From an uncultured Pseudomonadota bacterium (GTDB taxonomy: Bacteria; Pseudomonadota; Gammaproteobacteria; Steroidobacterales; Steroidobacteraceae), in assembly GCA_903832085.1 (NCBI GenBank), contig CAIKZZ010000007.1, positions 62,001 through 126,000 on the forward strand: a stretch of 64,000 nucleotides of DNA, read 5' to 3'. The notes under the pieces were generated by a model, which ran no database searches, had not been told where the DNA came from, and saw only the letters and a program-made list of their open reading frames with translations. Shown here one piece after another: positions 4,129 to 35,434 of this stretch. Positions within the stretch are counted from its first letter, which is position 1; the number at the start of each line of letters is the position of its first letter. The translations under genes and the position numbers were made by a program.

Positions 4129-5063
4129 GAGCGCACCTTTTGGGCAACTCGTAACACAGCGCTACGAGCACGTGTGTTGCGCCCAACCTCTTGGTCACTC
4201 GGGCGAGTCGCCTTGCCAATGATCTGAAGGTATGGCTGTGCGTCAATAGGAATGTTCGGCATGCCGCGCCATACGGGGTCACCCTCGGCAAAGCGACGCA
4301 TAAAGCGCTTGACCGGTCGGTCTTCAAGCGAATGGAAACTAATGACTGCCAGCCGTCCGTTCACCGCCAACAACTCAAGCGCTGACTCAAGAGCGCACTC
4401 GAGTAGCTCCAACTCACGGTTCACTTTGATTCGCAATGCTTGGAATGTGCGTGTAGCCGGATGTTTTCCGACTTCCCGAAATCGAGCCGGTATTGCGCTA
4501 GTAACAATCTCTGCTAGCTGCGATGTAGTAAGTATCGGTGCGACGAGACGGGCGGCCGTAATTGCGTGCGCGATCCGACGTGCGAAACGATCCTCACTAA
4601 ATTGAGAGATCATTGCAGCAATCTCCTGCTCCCGAGCATGCGCCAAATAATCAGCGGCGCTGACTCCAGTCGTTGGGTCCATGCGCATATCAAGCGGGCC
4701 GTCGCGCAAAAAACTGAAGCCTCTGGAAGGATCATCAAGCTGGGGCGAGGACACGCCGAGATCGAATAAAATGCCATCGACGGTACCGGCACTAACGAAA
4801 TCGGCAAGGCGGTCAAATGTCGCATGACATATCTGGACTCGTAAGTCGGCGCCCAACTCCTGGCGTGCGCTCTCGATTGCTTGAGGGTCGCGATCAACAA
4901 CAAAAAGTCTCCCTTGCTCACCTAACATCCCGAGAATTTCCCGGGAATGGCCGCCTCGACCATACGTTGCATCAACGTAAACGCCATCGCTCCTAATCAC
5001 TAACGCAGCAACCGCTTCATCGAGCAGTACCGGCGCATGCATTGACAGCACCGACTCAGTCAC
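4125..5063 (-). CDS. rsmH: RsmH (MraW), 16S rRNA (cytosine-1402-N4)-methyltransferase
   Basis: Methylates N4 of C1402 in the 16S rRNA P site; RsmI, encoded at 6337-7194, methylates the 2'-O of the same nucleotide. 312 residues, like the E. coli protein. The SAM-binding glycine motif DATYGRGGHS is near residues 31-41, followed by GILFDLGVSSPQLDD near 97-111 and the C-terminal ISFHSLEDRPVKRFMR. I prefer the GTG at 5063 because AAGGAG lies 7 nt before it; an internal ATG at 5042 (MHAPVLLDEAV) is the alternative. It follows mraZ by 55 bp and overlaps ftsL by 4 bp. Confidence 0.96.
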   Translation of the reverse strand: MTESVLSMHAPVLLDEAVAALVIRSDGVYVDATYGRGGHSREILGMLGEQGRLFVVDRDPQAIESARQELGADLRVQICHATFDRLADFVSAGTVDGILFDLGVSSPQLDDPSRGFSFLRDGPLDMRMDPTTGVSAADYLAHAREQEIAAMISQFSEDRFARRIAHAITAARLVAPILTTSQLAEIVTSAIPARFREVGKHPATRTFQALRIKVNRELELLECALESALELLAVNGRLAVISFHSLEDRPVKRFMRRFAEGDPVWRGMPNIPIDAQPYLQIIGKATRPSDQEVGRNTRARSAVLRVAQKVRS

Positions 5064-5118
5064 ACCATCGCTCCTTCAACGCGCGTTACGCGGTCACAGA
5101 CACCGGGCAACTGCATTA

Positions 5119-5571
5119 CTAAAGCGACAACGTCTCGAGGTCAGCGGGCAGTGCACCGGGCAGCTCGTCGTCCTTAAGCCACTCGTCACGACGCTGCGTC
5201 CAACGCACCTCATCCCACAACTCAAATCGATTCCCTTGCCCAAGCAGCACACCGTCGCGTTCAAGCCCAGCAAAAACTCTCAACTCAGCCGGCAGCAGAA
5301 TGCGGCCATGACCATCGAGCTGCAGATCGGTTGCGTGTCCCACCATCAGACGCTGCAGACGCCGCGACTGCGGATTCAAAGTGGGTAAGCGCATCAGTTT
5401 TCGCTCGATTTCTTCCCAGTCGGGCAATGGGTAGAGCAATAGGCAGTGATCCCGATCAATGGTCACCACCAACTTGCCTGCCGAACGCTCAACGAGCCCG
5501 TCCCGATACCGGGTAGGCAAGACCATTCGGCCTTTTGCGTCGAGGGTGACTTGATTGGCGCCGCGGAACAC
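5119..5571 (-). CDS. mraZ: MraZ, DNA-binding regulator of the dcw operon
   Basis: Two SpoVT-AbrB-type half-domains (around VTLDAKGRMVLPTRYRD and LDGHGRILLPAELR) make this MraZ, which forms a ring and binds TGGG repeats to repress its own operon. I place the start at GTG 5571 (protein MFRGANQVTLD..., 150 residues against about 152 in E. coli). An ATG 24 bp upstream at 5595 would add GVTPHKN, but it lies inside the third TGGG repeat of the operator and its GGAGG is only one base away, so it is a poor start. First gene of the division and wall cluster; promoter and operator are listed separately. Confidence 0.95.
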   Translation of the reverse strand: MFRGANQVTLDAKGRMVLPTRYRDGLVERSAGKLVVTIDRDHCLLLYPLPDWEEIERKLMRLPTLNPQSRRLQRLMVGHATDLQLDGHGRILLPAELRVFAGLERDGVLLGQGNRFELWDEVRWTQRRDEWLKDDELPGALPADLETLSL

Positions 5572-5590
5572 GTTTTTATGAGGTGTTACC

Positions 5591-5614
5591 CCCATTCCTC
5601 CCCACTTTTTCCCA
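5591..5614 (-). promoter_or_regulatory. MraZ operator: three TGGG repeats at 10-bp spacing
   Basis: On the minus strand three TGGG units lie exactly 10 bp apart (CCCA on the plus strand at 5591-5594, 5601-5604 and 5611-5614), reading TGGGA, TGGGG, TGGGG with 5-nt spacers. This matches the known MraZ recognition pattern of TGGGN direct repeats with 5-nt spacers. They sit just downstream of the predicted transcription start and upstream of the mraZ GTG, the arrangement expected for autorepression of the dcw operon. Confidence 0.85.
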
Positions 5615-5623
5615 CTTCACGCC

Positions 5624-5652
5624 ACTATAAGACGATCGCTGGAGGAGGTCAA
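5624..5652 (-). promoter_or_regulatory. sigma-70-type promoter of the mraZ (dcw) operon
   Basis: Minus-strand -35 TTGACC (plus 5647-5652) and -10 TATAGT (plus 5624-5629) are separated by exactly 17 bp. The predicted start point near 5617 puts the three MraZ repeats at the very beginning of the transcript. Its quality (five of six bases matching at -35, five of six at -10) and position make it the likely main promoter of mraZ-rsmH-ftsL-ftsI-murE-murF. Confidence 0.8.
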
Positions 5653-5875
5653 CGCTCTAAATCAGAATTTTTCGTGAAACTACAAGCACTTAGCGAGCGC
5701 TGGATGCTGAAAACCGCACGGGTTGAAATGACGATATATCAAAGGGTTACAGACTAGACTTCTAAGAATATATCAAATAATGCATGAATCGTGCCAATTC
5801 GTAAAATGCCTACTTGTGAGGCCTGCGCTACCGCGCCCAACCAGGGAAATCGCGGCATTTAAGCGAAATTAAGAT

Positions 5876-6285
<410 letters not shown>

Positions 6286-6291
6286 GCCCGC

Positions 6292-6320
6292 ACGATAGGC
6301 CCGTACGGCTAGAAGCTCAA
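6292..6320 (-). promoter_or_regulatory. Promoter of rnpB
   Basis: Minus-strand -35 TTGAGC (plus 6315-6320) and -10 TATCGT (plus 6292-6297) with a 17-bp spacer. The predicted start falls within a few bases of the 5' strand of the P1 helix of RNase P RNA, as expected for a directly initiated rnpB transcript. It lies in the 51-bp gap after the rsmI stop codon. Confidence 0.7.
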
Positions 6321-6336
6321 GCCTTGTCGGATGAAT

Positions 6337-7194
6337 TTAACTCAGAAACCGTTTTTTTTGCAGAGCCTGCTGGTAAACGGCATTGCGACGCTCACCCGTG
6401 ATTGCACTGACGATATCAACAGCCCGTGATAGCGGCAGCTCAGGCAACAAAGCGGCAAGCAAAGTACCCGTCAGCGGCAAACCACCATCTAAGGGCGCCT
6501 CATCGATCAACTTGCCCGCCACGATAACCACGGCCTCACCGCGCGTCATATTGACATCAGACTCTGCAGCACTCGCGAGGGCGCCGATCGTATCGCGGTA
6601 GACCGTTTCATGCATTTTAGTCAATTCACGCGCCAATGCCGCAGGACGCTCAGCGCCAAATGCTGCGCTGACATCTCGCAGCATATCCGCCAACCGATGC
6701 GGTGCCTCGTAAAAAACGAGCGTTCTGGCTTCGCTCACTAAAGCATCAAGTCTTGCACGGCGCTTCGCTCCGCGCGGCGGCAAGAATCCTTCAAAAACAA
6801 ACCGATCTGTAGGCAATCCTGCAACGGAAAGTGCTGCAATAGCAGCGCAAGCGCCGGGGATCGGGACAACCAAAATTCCTGCGCTTCCAGCTGCCGCCAC
6901 TAAACGAAAGCCGGGATCACTGACCAAAGGCGTGCCCGCATCGGACACCAAAGCGATCCGAGCTCCATCGGTCAAGCGCTGCACTAACTCAGCAACACGG
7001 TCATGCTCATTGTGCTCATGAAAGGAAATGAACGGGCGTTCAATACCCAGTTGACTCAGGAACGCGCCCGTATGCCGCGTGTCTTCAGCGGCAATCAAAT
7101 CTACTGACGCGAGAATCTCCCGCGCACGCGGCGACAAATCACTGCGATTGCCGATGGGCGTAGCAACAACATATAAAACACCTGCGGCTGACAC
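6337..7194 (-). CDS. rsmI: RsmI, 16S rRNA (cytidine-1402-2'-O)-methyltransferase
   Basis: Tetrapyrrole-methylase-fold SAM enzyme that makes 2'-O-methyl-C1402, partner modification to RsmH. The N-terminal LYVVATPIGNRSDLSPRA, AAEDTRHT, ISFHEHNE and LVSDAGTPLVSDPG blocks are all family signatures; the C-terminal half carries GFLPPRGAKR and FYEAPHRL. 285 residues from the GTG at 7194, chosen because GGAG stands 9 nt before it; a GTG at 7209 would add five residues and has no Shine-Dalgarno sequence. Divergent from the LpoA-like gene, as in many gammaproteobacteria, and upstream of rnpB. Confidence 0.95.
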   Translation of the reverse strand: MSAAGVLYVVATPIGNRSDLSPRAREILASVDLIAAEDTRHTGAFLSQLGIERPFISFHEHNEHDRVAELVQRLTDGARIALVSDAGTPLVSDPGFRLVAAAGSAGILVVPIPGACAAIAALSVAGLPTDRFVFEGFLPPRGAKRRARLDALVSEARTLVFYEAPHRLADMLRDVSAAFGAERPAALARELTKMHETVYRDTIGALASAAESDVNMTRGEAVVIVAGKLIDEAPLDGGLPLTGTLLAALLPELPLSRAVDIVSAITGERRNAVYQQALQKKRFLS

Positions 7195-32732: not shown

Positions 32733-33896
32733 ATGGCTTCAAATAGCTTTCTATTCACCTCGGAATCGGTCTCGGAAGGCCATCCGGACAAGGTAGCTGA
32801 CCAAATCTCCGATGCGGTTCTGGACGCGATCCTCCGGGAAGACCGCAAAGCCCGCGTTGCCTGCGAGACGCTGATCAAGACCGGTTGCGTAATTCTGGCT
32901 GGAGAAGTGACCACCAAAGCATGGGTTGATCTCGAAGCGATCGTTAGAAAAACCGTGCTGCGGATCGGTTACAACCACTCAGACATGGGCTTTGATGGCG
33001 CAAGTTGCGCGGTCATTAACATCATCGGCAAGCAATCCCCAGACATAGCACAGGGCGTTGATCGCAAGGATCCTCGCAAGCAAGGCGCGGGTGATCAAGG
33101 GCTTATGTTCGGTTATGCAAGCAACGAAACAGATGTTTTGATGCCAGCGCCGATTACTTACGCACACCGTCTCGTGCAACGTCAGGCGTCGATCCGCCGT
33201 AGCAAACGGCTGCCATGGCTGCGTCCAGACGCAAAGAGCCAGATTACATTCCGGTATGAGCATGACCGACCGGTGGGCATTGAAGCCGTTGTCCTATCGA
33301 CACAGCACGCCCCAACGGTCAGTCAGCGCGAACTACGCGAAGGTGTCATGGAGGAAATTATCCTACCAACCCTTCCAAAACGTTGGATCTCCAAGAAAAC
33401 CAAATTTCATATTAATCCAACTGGGAAATTCGTCATCGGCGGGCCCGTCGGCGACTGTGGCCTCACAGGACGCAAAATCATCGTGGATACCTATGGCGGT
33501 TATGCCCGTCACGGTGGCGGCGCTTTCTCAGGAAAAGATCCCTCTAAGGTAGACCGCTCGGCGGCCTACGCTGCCCGTTACGTGGCAAAAAATATCGTTG
33601 CCGCTGGCCTCGCCGAGCGCTGCGAAGTACAAGTCTCCTACGCCATTGGCGTGGCCGAGCCTACCTCTGTGATGGTTGAAACGTTTGGTACTAGCAAGCT
33701 ATCGCGTGAAAAACTCACGCAACTTGTGCTGAGACACTTCGATTTAACGCCCTATGGTCTGCGCCAAATGCTAGACCTCGCCCGGCCGATATATGAGGCC
33801 ACTGCTGCATACGGACACTTTGGACGTAATGAAGCTGACTTCACCTGGGAAGCGACCGACAAGGCGCGCGCCCTGAAAGCCGACGCAAAAAAATAA
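32733..33896 (+). CDS. metK: MetK, S-adenosylmethionine synthetase
   Basis: Makes SAM from methionine and ATP. 387 residues: [24 protein letters not shown] near the N-terminus, [12 protein letters not shown], the DxGLTGRKI ([17 protein letters not shown]) and [19 protein letters not shown] signatures are all present, and the C-terminus is normal. It starts the metK - SAH riboswitch - ahcY unit, so synthesis of SAM and removal of its by-product SAH are adjacent. No strong Shine-Dalgarno is visible before the ATG (GGTAGG). Confidence 0.97.
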
Positions 33897-33906
33897 TTTT
33901 TGAAAT

Positions 33907-33994
33907 ACCGTCGCTCTGAGGGGCGCTGCAGCGACGCGGGAACAGCCTGCGTCTGCCAGGCTCAGTAGGGACGGTCGACTTGAAACGGCGCCCA
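33907..33994 (+). promoter_or_regulatory. SAH riboswitch upstream of ahcY
   Basis: Matches the S-adenosylhomocysteine riboswitch (ahcY motif): GAGGGGCGCTGCAGCGAC, then CCAGGCTCAG, then GAAACGGCGCCCA, in consensus order. P1 pairs CCGTC/CTGAG (33908-33920) with CTCAG/GACGG (33961-33974). The pseudoknot pairs GGGCGC (33921-33926) with GCGCCC (33988-33993). P2 hairpin follows the GCTGC core. It lies 27 bp before the ahcY start, whose Shine-Dalgarno AAAGGAG is immediately downstream. The class turns expression on when SAH accumulates, so it would raise SAH hydrolase. Confidence 0.92.
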
Positions 33995-34021
33995 TTCAGT
34001 CTCTAATAAAGGAGAGATCGA

Positions 34022-35434
34022 ATGAGTGCAGTAGTTCAGTTGAAGAATGATTTTCACGTGGCGGATCTTGCGCTTGCTGACTTTGGTCGCAAGGAAATCG
34101 CTATCGCTGAGACTGAGATGCCAGGTCTTATGTCGGTACGCGAAGAATATGCGGCGCAGCAGCCTCTGAAGGGTGCGCGTATTGCCGGCTCCCTACACAT
34201 GACCATCCAAACAGCCGTACTTATCGAGACGCTCACCGCGCTTGGTGCAGATGTACGCTGGGCATCATGCAATATCTACTCAACGCAGGACCACGCCGCT
34301 GCGGCCATTGTGAAAGCAGGAACCCCTGTTTTCGCCTATAAAGGCGAGTCACTGAAGGACTACTGGGAATTCACCCATAAGATCTTTGAGTGGTCAGATG
34401 GCGGCGCGCCTAACATGATTCTTGATGATGGCGGCGACGCAACGCTGCTCGTCCACCTTGGGCTCAAGGCAGAATCAGACCCAAGCGTTATCACTAACCC
34501 CACCAATGAAGAGGAAGAAGCGCTGTACGCGGCCATCGCACAGCGCTTGAAAGCAAAGCCTGGTTTTTATAAAAACCTCGCCAAGAACATCAAGGGTGTT
34601 ACGGAAGAAACCACCACCGGCGTTCACCGCCTGTATCAGATGCAGAAAGAAGGTCGATTACTATTCCCTGCAATCAACGTCAATGACTCGGTCACTAAGT
34701 CAAAGTTTGACAACCTTTATGGTTGCCGTGAGTCGCTGGTTGATGCGATCAAACGCGCCACTGACGTCATGATCGCTGGCAAGGTTGCGGTCGTCGCAGG
34801 GTATGGGGATGTCGGCAAAGGTAGCGCCCAGGCTCTCAAAGCCCTATCCGCCCAAGTCTGGGTCACTGAAATTGACCCTATTTGTGCGCTGCAGGCGGCA
34901 ATGGATGGCTACCGCGTGGTCACCATGGAGTATGCCGCGGACAAGGCCGATATCTTTGTGACCGCGACCGGCAATCTGTGCGTCATCAATAAGGGCCATA
35001 TGCAGCGAATGAAGCACAATTCGATCGTCTGCAATATTGGTCACTTTGACTCAGAGATCGACGTTGCAAGCCTTGCTACATGCCAATGGGAAGAGATCAA
35101 GCCACAAGTGGACCACGTCATTTTCCCAGATGGCAAGCGCATCATCATCTTGGCGAGGGGACGACTTGTAAATCTAGGCTGTGGCACAGGGCATCCATCT
35201 TTCGTTATGTCGAACTCATTTGCGAATCAAACGCTCGCACAGATCGAACTGTGGACCAAACTTTCGCAATACAAAAATGAGGTCTACACACTGCCGAAGC
35301 ATCTTGATGAGCACGTCGCTCGCCTACATCTCAAGAAGTTGGGTGCTGAACTCACAGAGCTGTCGGCTGAACAGGCGGCTTATATTGGTGTGCCAGTGGC
35401 AGGTCCGTTTAAGTCTGACTCGTATCGCTACTAA
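34022..35434 (+). CDS. ahcY: AhcY, S-adenosylhomocysteine hydrolase
   Basis: NAD-dependent, reversible hydrolysis of SAH to homocysteine and adenosine, relieving SAH inhibition of methyltransferases. 470 residues. [34 protein letters not shown], the NAD loop [16 protein letters not shown] and the C-terminal [10 protein letters not shown] (Lys/Tyr at the NAD site) are all intact. AAAGGAG 8 nt before the ATG. Controlled by the SAH riboswitch just upstream; a perfect 13-bp hairpin follows the stop. Confidence 0.98.

Follow-up and report, generated by a model that had tools for sequence, protein, structure and literature searches.

A transcribed MraZ operator that may double as a split ribosome-binding site in the mraZ leader of Steroidobacteraceae-like Gammaproteobacteria

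We analyzed the leader of mraZ in a stretch of 64,000 nucleotides of contig CAIKZZ010000007.1 (assembly GCA_903832085.1), which we call the window. The results suggest that the transcribed MraZ operator doubles in this leader as a split ribosome-binding site, and we put the probability of this reading at roughly 0.6. That is, at the DNA level, MraZ would bind three TGGG boxes spaced by 10 bp just past the promoter and would repress its own operon. Since the operator lies inside the transcribed leader, the sequences of the boxes are also present in the mRNA. At the RNA level, box 2 and the spacer that follows it (GGGGAGG, 5603-5597) would serve as the Shine-Dalgarno (SD) sequence, and box 3 (5594-5591) would pair with its complement downstream to form a hairpin at 5595-5578. 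This hairpin would loop out 18 nt, shorten the distance between the SD and the GTG start codon at 5571 from 25 to 7 nt, and bury a decoy AUG at 5595. Ribosomes may then bridge the hairpin from the upstream SD to GTG 5571. We also favor, a little less firmly, the fuller proposition that the same bases act as MraZ boxes 2 and 3 at the DNA level, and in the transcript as the SD and as a co-evolving hairpin arm that folds the SD onto the start codon, and that this chromosomal split site has been selected throughout the family, with the hairpin enlarged in some genera.

An earlier note on this DNA had remarked, as an oddity, that no SD lies close to GTG 5571. Our analysis agrees with this remark, the nearest strong SD being GGGGAGG at 5603-5597, which ends 25 nt upstream. 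The SD inside the operator and the hairpin between box 3 and the mraZ start, both of which the note had missed, probably explain the oddity. The hairpin is a new finding.

The mraZ coding sequence occupies 5119..5571 on the minus strand and has 150 residues when read from GTG 5571. In profile searches with the ORF of the window, the product scored 149.6 bits against TIGR00242 and 124.4 bits against Pfam MraZ. On the minus strand, mraZ comes first and is followed by rsmH, ftsL (all three Pfam matches) and a penicillin-binding-protein ORF that we read as ftsI. This order of division and cell-wall genes around mraZ is ordinary.

On the same strand, the -35 element TTGACC (5647..5652) and the -10 element TATAGT (5624..5629) are separated by a spacer of 17 bp. 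The pair agrees with the promoter consensus at 10 of 12 positions and was the sole promoter-like match in 5000-6400, where shuffled sequences gave a mean of 0.5; the mraZ transcript would start at about 5617. The three TGGG boxes follow at 5611..5614 (box 1), 5601..5604 (box 2) and 5591..5594 (box 3), and the last of them also lies within the 5' arm of the RNA hairpin. The promoter with its 17-bp spacing and the three repeats exactly 10 bp apart had been claimed in the note, and all of them are present on the minus strand; the ATG at 5595-5593 does overlap box 3 at 5594-5591, as claimed there too. The motif TGGG-N6-TGGG-N6-TGGG has a single copy in the window and two in the genome of 2.65 Mb, and none of 100 dinucleotide shuffles contained it. 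The second exact triple with a 10-bp period is located on the minus strand at G000:C10:65216-65239 (L185) and reads TGGGCTGGTGTGGGTCTGGATGGG.

Three sets of leaders were used for comparison. The window belongs to a family of Steroidobacteraceae-like Gammaproteobacteria, for which we obtained 130 leaders, that is, those of 140 genomes with mraZ minus 11 (10 unfetched and 1 cut by a contig end) plus 1 other. From the same order outside the family, 40 of 115 matched genomes were picked by hand for spread over families. The class set (n=41) consisted of 40 of 160 matched genomes from other orders, also picked by hand for family spread, plus E. coli K-12; 3 of the 41 had no recognisable boxes, which left 38 usable for the counts of SD sequences.

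The -10 element was TATAGT at all six positions in 124 of the 130 family leaders. The three boxes were perfect (12/12 letters) in 116 of the 130, and 13 more had 11 of the 12 letters. Thus the conservation of the repeats upstream of mraZ in neighbouring genomes, which the note had proposed as a check, was confirmed, and the arrangement of promoter and boxes in the relatives is far from chance. The repeats are direct, have a period of 10 bp, and lie between the promoter and the mraZ start. In E. coli K-12, three TGGG boxes with this 10-bp spacing likewise stand at the corresponding place before mraZ. According to two published papers, MraZ binds such repeats in E. coli and in Mollicutes, and the direct repeats stand upstream of mraZ near the promoter, with a 10-bp unit in Mollicutes (PMC8475190, PMC5282649). 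We infer that MraZ binds the boxes and regulates its own expression in the present bacterium as well.

The position of the start codon was considered from comparative evidence. GTG 5571-5569 (the start codon at 5569..5571, minus strand, giving MFRGAN) opens V(M)FRGANQVTLDAKGR, a product of 150 residues. When the MFRG motif was located in the relatives without requiring a start codon at that position, the codon found there in the 130 family leaders was ATG in 99, GTG in 30 and TTG in 1, so that all 130 had a start codon. The same was true (ATG, GTG or TTG) of 40/40 order leaders and 40/41 class leaders. The ATG in box 3 (5593..5595) was present in 113 of the 130 family leaders, of which 21 had it in frame and open, 6 in frame and followed by a stop, and 86 out of frame. 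Within the genus of the window (13 leaders), it was in frame and open in 7, the window included, stopped by an in-frame TAA in 2, and out of frame in 4. In addition, the longer ORF aligns to TIGR00242 and Pfam MraZ only from its residue 10 onward. Since the start at MFRG is kept while the frame of the box-3 ATG is not conserved, the likely product is the protein of 150 residues that begins at GTG 5571, and the 158-residue ORF from ATG 5595 is very probably wrong. The note had taken GTG 5571 as the standard MFRGAN start and had doubted the longer ORF; both views, and the comparison of MraZ N-termini that it had proposed, held up in these counts.

The hairpin of the window leader, AUGGGG-GUAACA-CCUCAU (5578..5595, minus strand), has a stem of six pairs, including one G-U, and a loop of six bases, and the tail AAAAAC (5572..5577) separates it from the start codon. 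Its 5' arm is box 3 and its 3' arm is a covarying C-rich stretch downstream. The 30-nt stretch 5571-5600, which was picked after the hairpin had been seen, gave a fold z of -3.82, and 0 of 200 shuffles were equally stable. By a criterion of our own choosing, an unbroken run of at least 4 pairs that begins with the GGG of box 3, the hairpin was found in 93 of the 114 family leaders of usual length, and 200 shuffles of the same bases gave a mean of 21.2 and a maximum of 33. The remaining 16 leaders, with lengths below 20 or above 31 nt, were treated separately, and the 94 hairpin leaders counted below include one long doubtful case (L126). The loop is 3-7 nt long in the family and its sequence varies, and the total span of the hairpin ranges from 13 to 20 nt.

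In order to avoid circularity, we fixed the 3' arm only by the first CCC; 94 of the 114 leaders could be used in this way, and 20 had no usable CCC. The fourth pair formed in 79 of the 94 (43.6 in permutations), and the fourth and fifth pairs together in 66 (23.3 in permutations). Shuffles within genera matched the observed pairing at fractions of 0.0055 or less. With one leader per genus (20 leaders), the fourth pair formed in 17 against 10.7 expected, and 0 of 2000 permutations were as high; the fourth and fifth together formed in 10 of 20 against 4.9 (fraction 0.011), and the fifth alone in 12 of 20 against 9.0, which was not significant (fraction 0.14). An ungapped alignment of 33 leaders was also examined. 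In this alignment, 96.1% of the cells pair (88.5 in shuffles), and 15 cells are changed on both sides (4.6 in shuffles). All six standard pair types are represented at the fourth pair, without a single unpaired case, and shifting the partner by 1-3 columns cuts the pairing to 32-46%. The number of pairs with a two-sided change was 2, which was reached by 440 of 500 shuffles. The basal A-U pair is kept in 30 of the 33, and the partner of the box-3 T gives UG in 16 and UA in 17. The window leader itself lies outside this alignment, having a six-base loop, and outside the CCC-anchored test, its arm reading CCTC.

RNAalifold returned the same stem with six pairs at -8.06 kcal/mol. At the fourth pair, G-U outnumbered A-C by 18 to 1, and at the fifth pair by 18 to 0; this excess indicates that the sense RNA, rather than double-stranded DNA, has been selected. 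The predicted probability of the core stem pairs was 0.97 in the window leader, with a median of 0.99 in the 93 leaders. When a longer part of the window leader is folded, the stem persists, but the stability is not exceptional (z -1.39 for 58 nt and +0.30 for 119 nt), and in the 58-nt fold box 1 is paired with the first codons. Taken comprehensively, covariation and predicted folding support well that the hairpin is a conserved RNA structure of the sense strand. An intrinsic terminator at 5578-5595 was ruled out, because the T run is absent after the stem; we found no terminator-like or attenuator-like site there.

The decoy ATG at 5593..5595 would be buried at the base of the stem. The probability that this codon is unpaired was 0.04 in the window leader, with a median of 0.14 across the hairpin leaders. 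The base before box 3 was A in 85 of the 94 hairpin leaders, and boxes 1 and 2 were always preceded by G. Such an A is expected if a stem that uses it shapes box 3 beyond the needs of the operator, and the G before the other two boxes means that the operator does not force an AUG.

Some genera of the family depart from the usual hairpin and contribute to the 36 family leaders that do not pass our criterion. Those from one genus (g22) have a stem of four or five pairs that lacks the fourth inward pair. In another (g4), the box-3 hairpin of L108, L111, L122 and L142 has grown to a long imperfect stem, with leader energies from -18.8 to -27.2 kcal/mol; the genus also includes L115 and L116, in which just 14 nt separate box 3 from the start codon and this hairpin is absent. 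In a third (g19; L056, L062, L067, L073 and L101), we noticed by eye an alternative stem in which GAGGA/GGAU of spacer 2 pairs with UCCUC/AUCC and which would cover the SD, and some leaders of this genus have, again by eye, GGAG 3 nt before the ATG.

We then consider the location of the SD. The sequence GGGGAGG at 5597..5603 (minus strand) is made up of part of box 2 and of the spacer between boxes 2 and 3. We called an SD strong when its pairing energy with the anti-SD was -5 kcal/mol or lower, a cut-off of our own choosing; the anti-SD sequence was an assumed one, and a search of this assembly did not yield the end of the 16S gene. A strong SD was present in spacer 2 (boxes 2-3) of 80 of the 94 hairpin leaders, in spacer 1 (boxes 1-2) of 20, and downstream of box 3 in 3. 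Among the usable leaders from other orders (n=38), a strong SD stood downstream of box 3 in 29 and in spacer 2 in 5; for these differences in location, Fisher p values were 5e-18 and 6e-15, uncorrected for relatedness. The probability that the SD is unpaired was 0.28 in the window leader, with a median of 0.56 in the 93 leaders.

By direct count, the SD of the window lies 25 nt from GTG 5571, and 7 nt from it when the 18-nt hairpin is looped out. Thus the SD stands beyond the functional distance with no nearer strong SD, as it does in most hairpin leaders of the family by the counts above, and the hairpin, indicated by covariation and folding, would bring the spacing into the functional range. 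In the 80 leaders, the raw distance was 24-33 nt (median 26), and the distance after looping out was 6-15 nt (median 9), a value to be read with the fact that any excision between SD and start shortens the distance. The median of ordinary SD spacing in the class, 5, is shorter than this looped-out median of 9. The distance from box 3 to the start did not follow hairpin length one for one, as had been expected, the slope being only 0.36; tail length and hairpin length showed a correlation of -0.47.

A tight link between the hairpin and the location of the SD was also expected, and it holds only loosely. Of the family leaders without the hairpin by our criterion (36), 21 had an SD in spacer 2 and 2 had one downstream. 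The 40 order leaders from outside the family comprised 22 with an SD in spacer 2, 6 with one downstream, and only 10 with the hairpin, 5 of these 10 together with a spacer-2 SD. In the class, our criterion picks out 6 of the 38 leaders as having the hairpin, each of them with a downstream SD. That is, the location of the SD tracks lineage more than it tracks the hairpin. Some order leaders outside the family, e.g. L162, L164 and L167, have neither a hairpin by our criterion nor a downstream SD, and SD-independent initiation of mraZ is therefore plausible there.

Several other explanations can be weighed against these results. The hairpin might mainly hide the decoy A/GUG of box 3, so that ribosomes start at MFRG, with the upstream SD unused across the hairpin and initiation independent of an SD. 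We regard this as unlikely, although it is the alternative to which we give the most weight. It agrees with the low unpaired probability of the decoy codon (median 0.14; window 0.04) and with the basal A-U pair kept in 30/33 aligned leaders; moreover, the decoy ATG adjoins a strong SD, and of the 113 family leaders that bear this ATG 86 have it out of frame; the order leaders just described make SD-independent initiation plausible in their case. However, hiding of the decoy leaves unexplained why SD sequences are enriched in spacer 2 (80/94) over spacer 1 (20/94), and the A before box 3 in 85/94 hairpin leaders, where boxes 1 and 2 have G, means that there was no AUG forced by the operator. 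We think it rather improbable that the hairpin serves to control translation, blocking initiation in its folded state in response to a protein such as MraZ or CsrA or to temperature. It does lie in the leader of a presumed autoregulator, the adjacent SD is partly occluded in some folds, and the alternative stem seen by eye in g19 would cover the SD; but the typical stem leaves both the SD and the start codon outside, and a loop of variable sequence and length (3-7 nt) offers no obvious site for recognition by a protein.

Three further explanations seem very improbable to us. With three G runs in the boxes and a GG in the spacer, the leader might act through a G-quadruplex, a structure that has been reported for the S. 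aureus mraZ promoter (PMC11796246). Against this, the C-rich arm co-evolves with box 3, which favors a duplex stem, and the window leader has only three runs of at least 3 Gs. Even more doubtful is the idea that CCCA downstream of box 3 acts in DNA as a fourth MraZ half-site in inverted orientation. Read on the other strand, CCCA gives TGGG (in the window the bases are CCTCA), but the fourth and fifth pairs, which lie beyond TGGG, covary, and G-U is far above A-C. Furthermore, G stands opposite the T of box 3 as often as A (UG 16, UA 17, n=33), which would spoil a TGGG on the opposite strand, and the hairpin covers anything between 13 and 20 nt. We rejected this candidate, since such a half-site calls for CCCA at a fixed helical phase with no covariation outside it, and what we found was covariation and the excess of G-U. 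We give equally little credit to the 158-residue ORF from ATG 5595 as a real protein, with the SD-like GGAGG serving that ATG directly. Its frame is open in 7 of the 13 genus leaders, the window included, but a TAA interrupts it in 2 and the ATG is out of frame in 4 of these and in 86 of 113 in the family; moreover, just 1 nt would separate GGAGG from the AUG.

As a probable split ribosome-binding site, the mraZ leader can be compared with known systems. To our knowledge, T4 genes 25 and 38 and E. coli thrS are the main cases that have shown how ribosomes handle structure between SD and start codon. The thrS mRNA is bound by its own protein, which represses it. A hairpin in T4 genes 38 and 25 cuts the distance between SD and start from 22 to 5 nt and from 27 to 11 nt, and mutations that destabilise the structure reduce initiation (PMC3014915). 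As in these genes (22 and 27 nt), the SD of mraZ is too distant (25 nt) and an intervening hairpin would shorten the distance to 7 nt. Unlike in T4, the mraZ leader belongs to a chromosomal regulator gene and occurs family-wide, and the SD and one arm of the stem are parts of a repressor operator; its function here is our deduction. E. coli thrS is named as a split ribosome-binding site in another source (PMC3936740), and the mraZ leader resembles it in that RNA structure interrupts the ribosome-binding site. In contrast to the large structured modules of thrS, the mraZ leader has just one small hairpin, and no ligand of its RNA is known. It also differs from the leader of E. coli mraZ, in which an ordinary SD, GGGGTGAGG, lies between box 3 and the ATG; in the present leader the hairpin occupies that place, with the SD farther upstream, in the spacer of boxes 2 and 3. 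Among the matches listed from open-licence PMC papers, in part the best 20 of many, none described a hairpin or a split site in an mraZ leader.

These findings may have practical meaning. A strong SD beside an ATG would lure gene-start callers to a wrong start for the first gene of a cell-division operon. If the proposed mechanism holds, the leader would be a compact case of DNA and RNA functions residing in the same bases, and the 93 natural variants could be used for studying how ribosomes deal with structure between the SD and the start codon. The comparison also points to an evolutionary switch: other orders mostly have the SD downstream of the operator, whereas the family mostly has the SD inside the operator with the hairpin between SD and start.

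When the whole window was scanned with Rfam, the matches at gathering score were RNase P class A and an SAH riboswitch, and the mraZ leader hairpin matched no family at that score. The RNase P class A RNA gene (5873-6284, minus strand, 324.7 bits) lies directly upstream of the mraZ promoter on the same strand. The SAH riboswitch (33912-34000, plus strand) sits in an ordinary setting between ORFs 32733-33896 and 34022-35434, which presumably encode S-adenosylmethionine synthetase and adenosylhomocysteinase, respectively.
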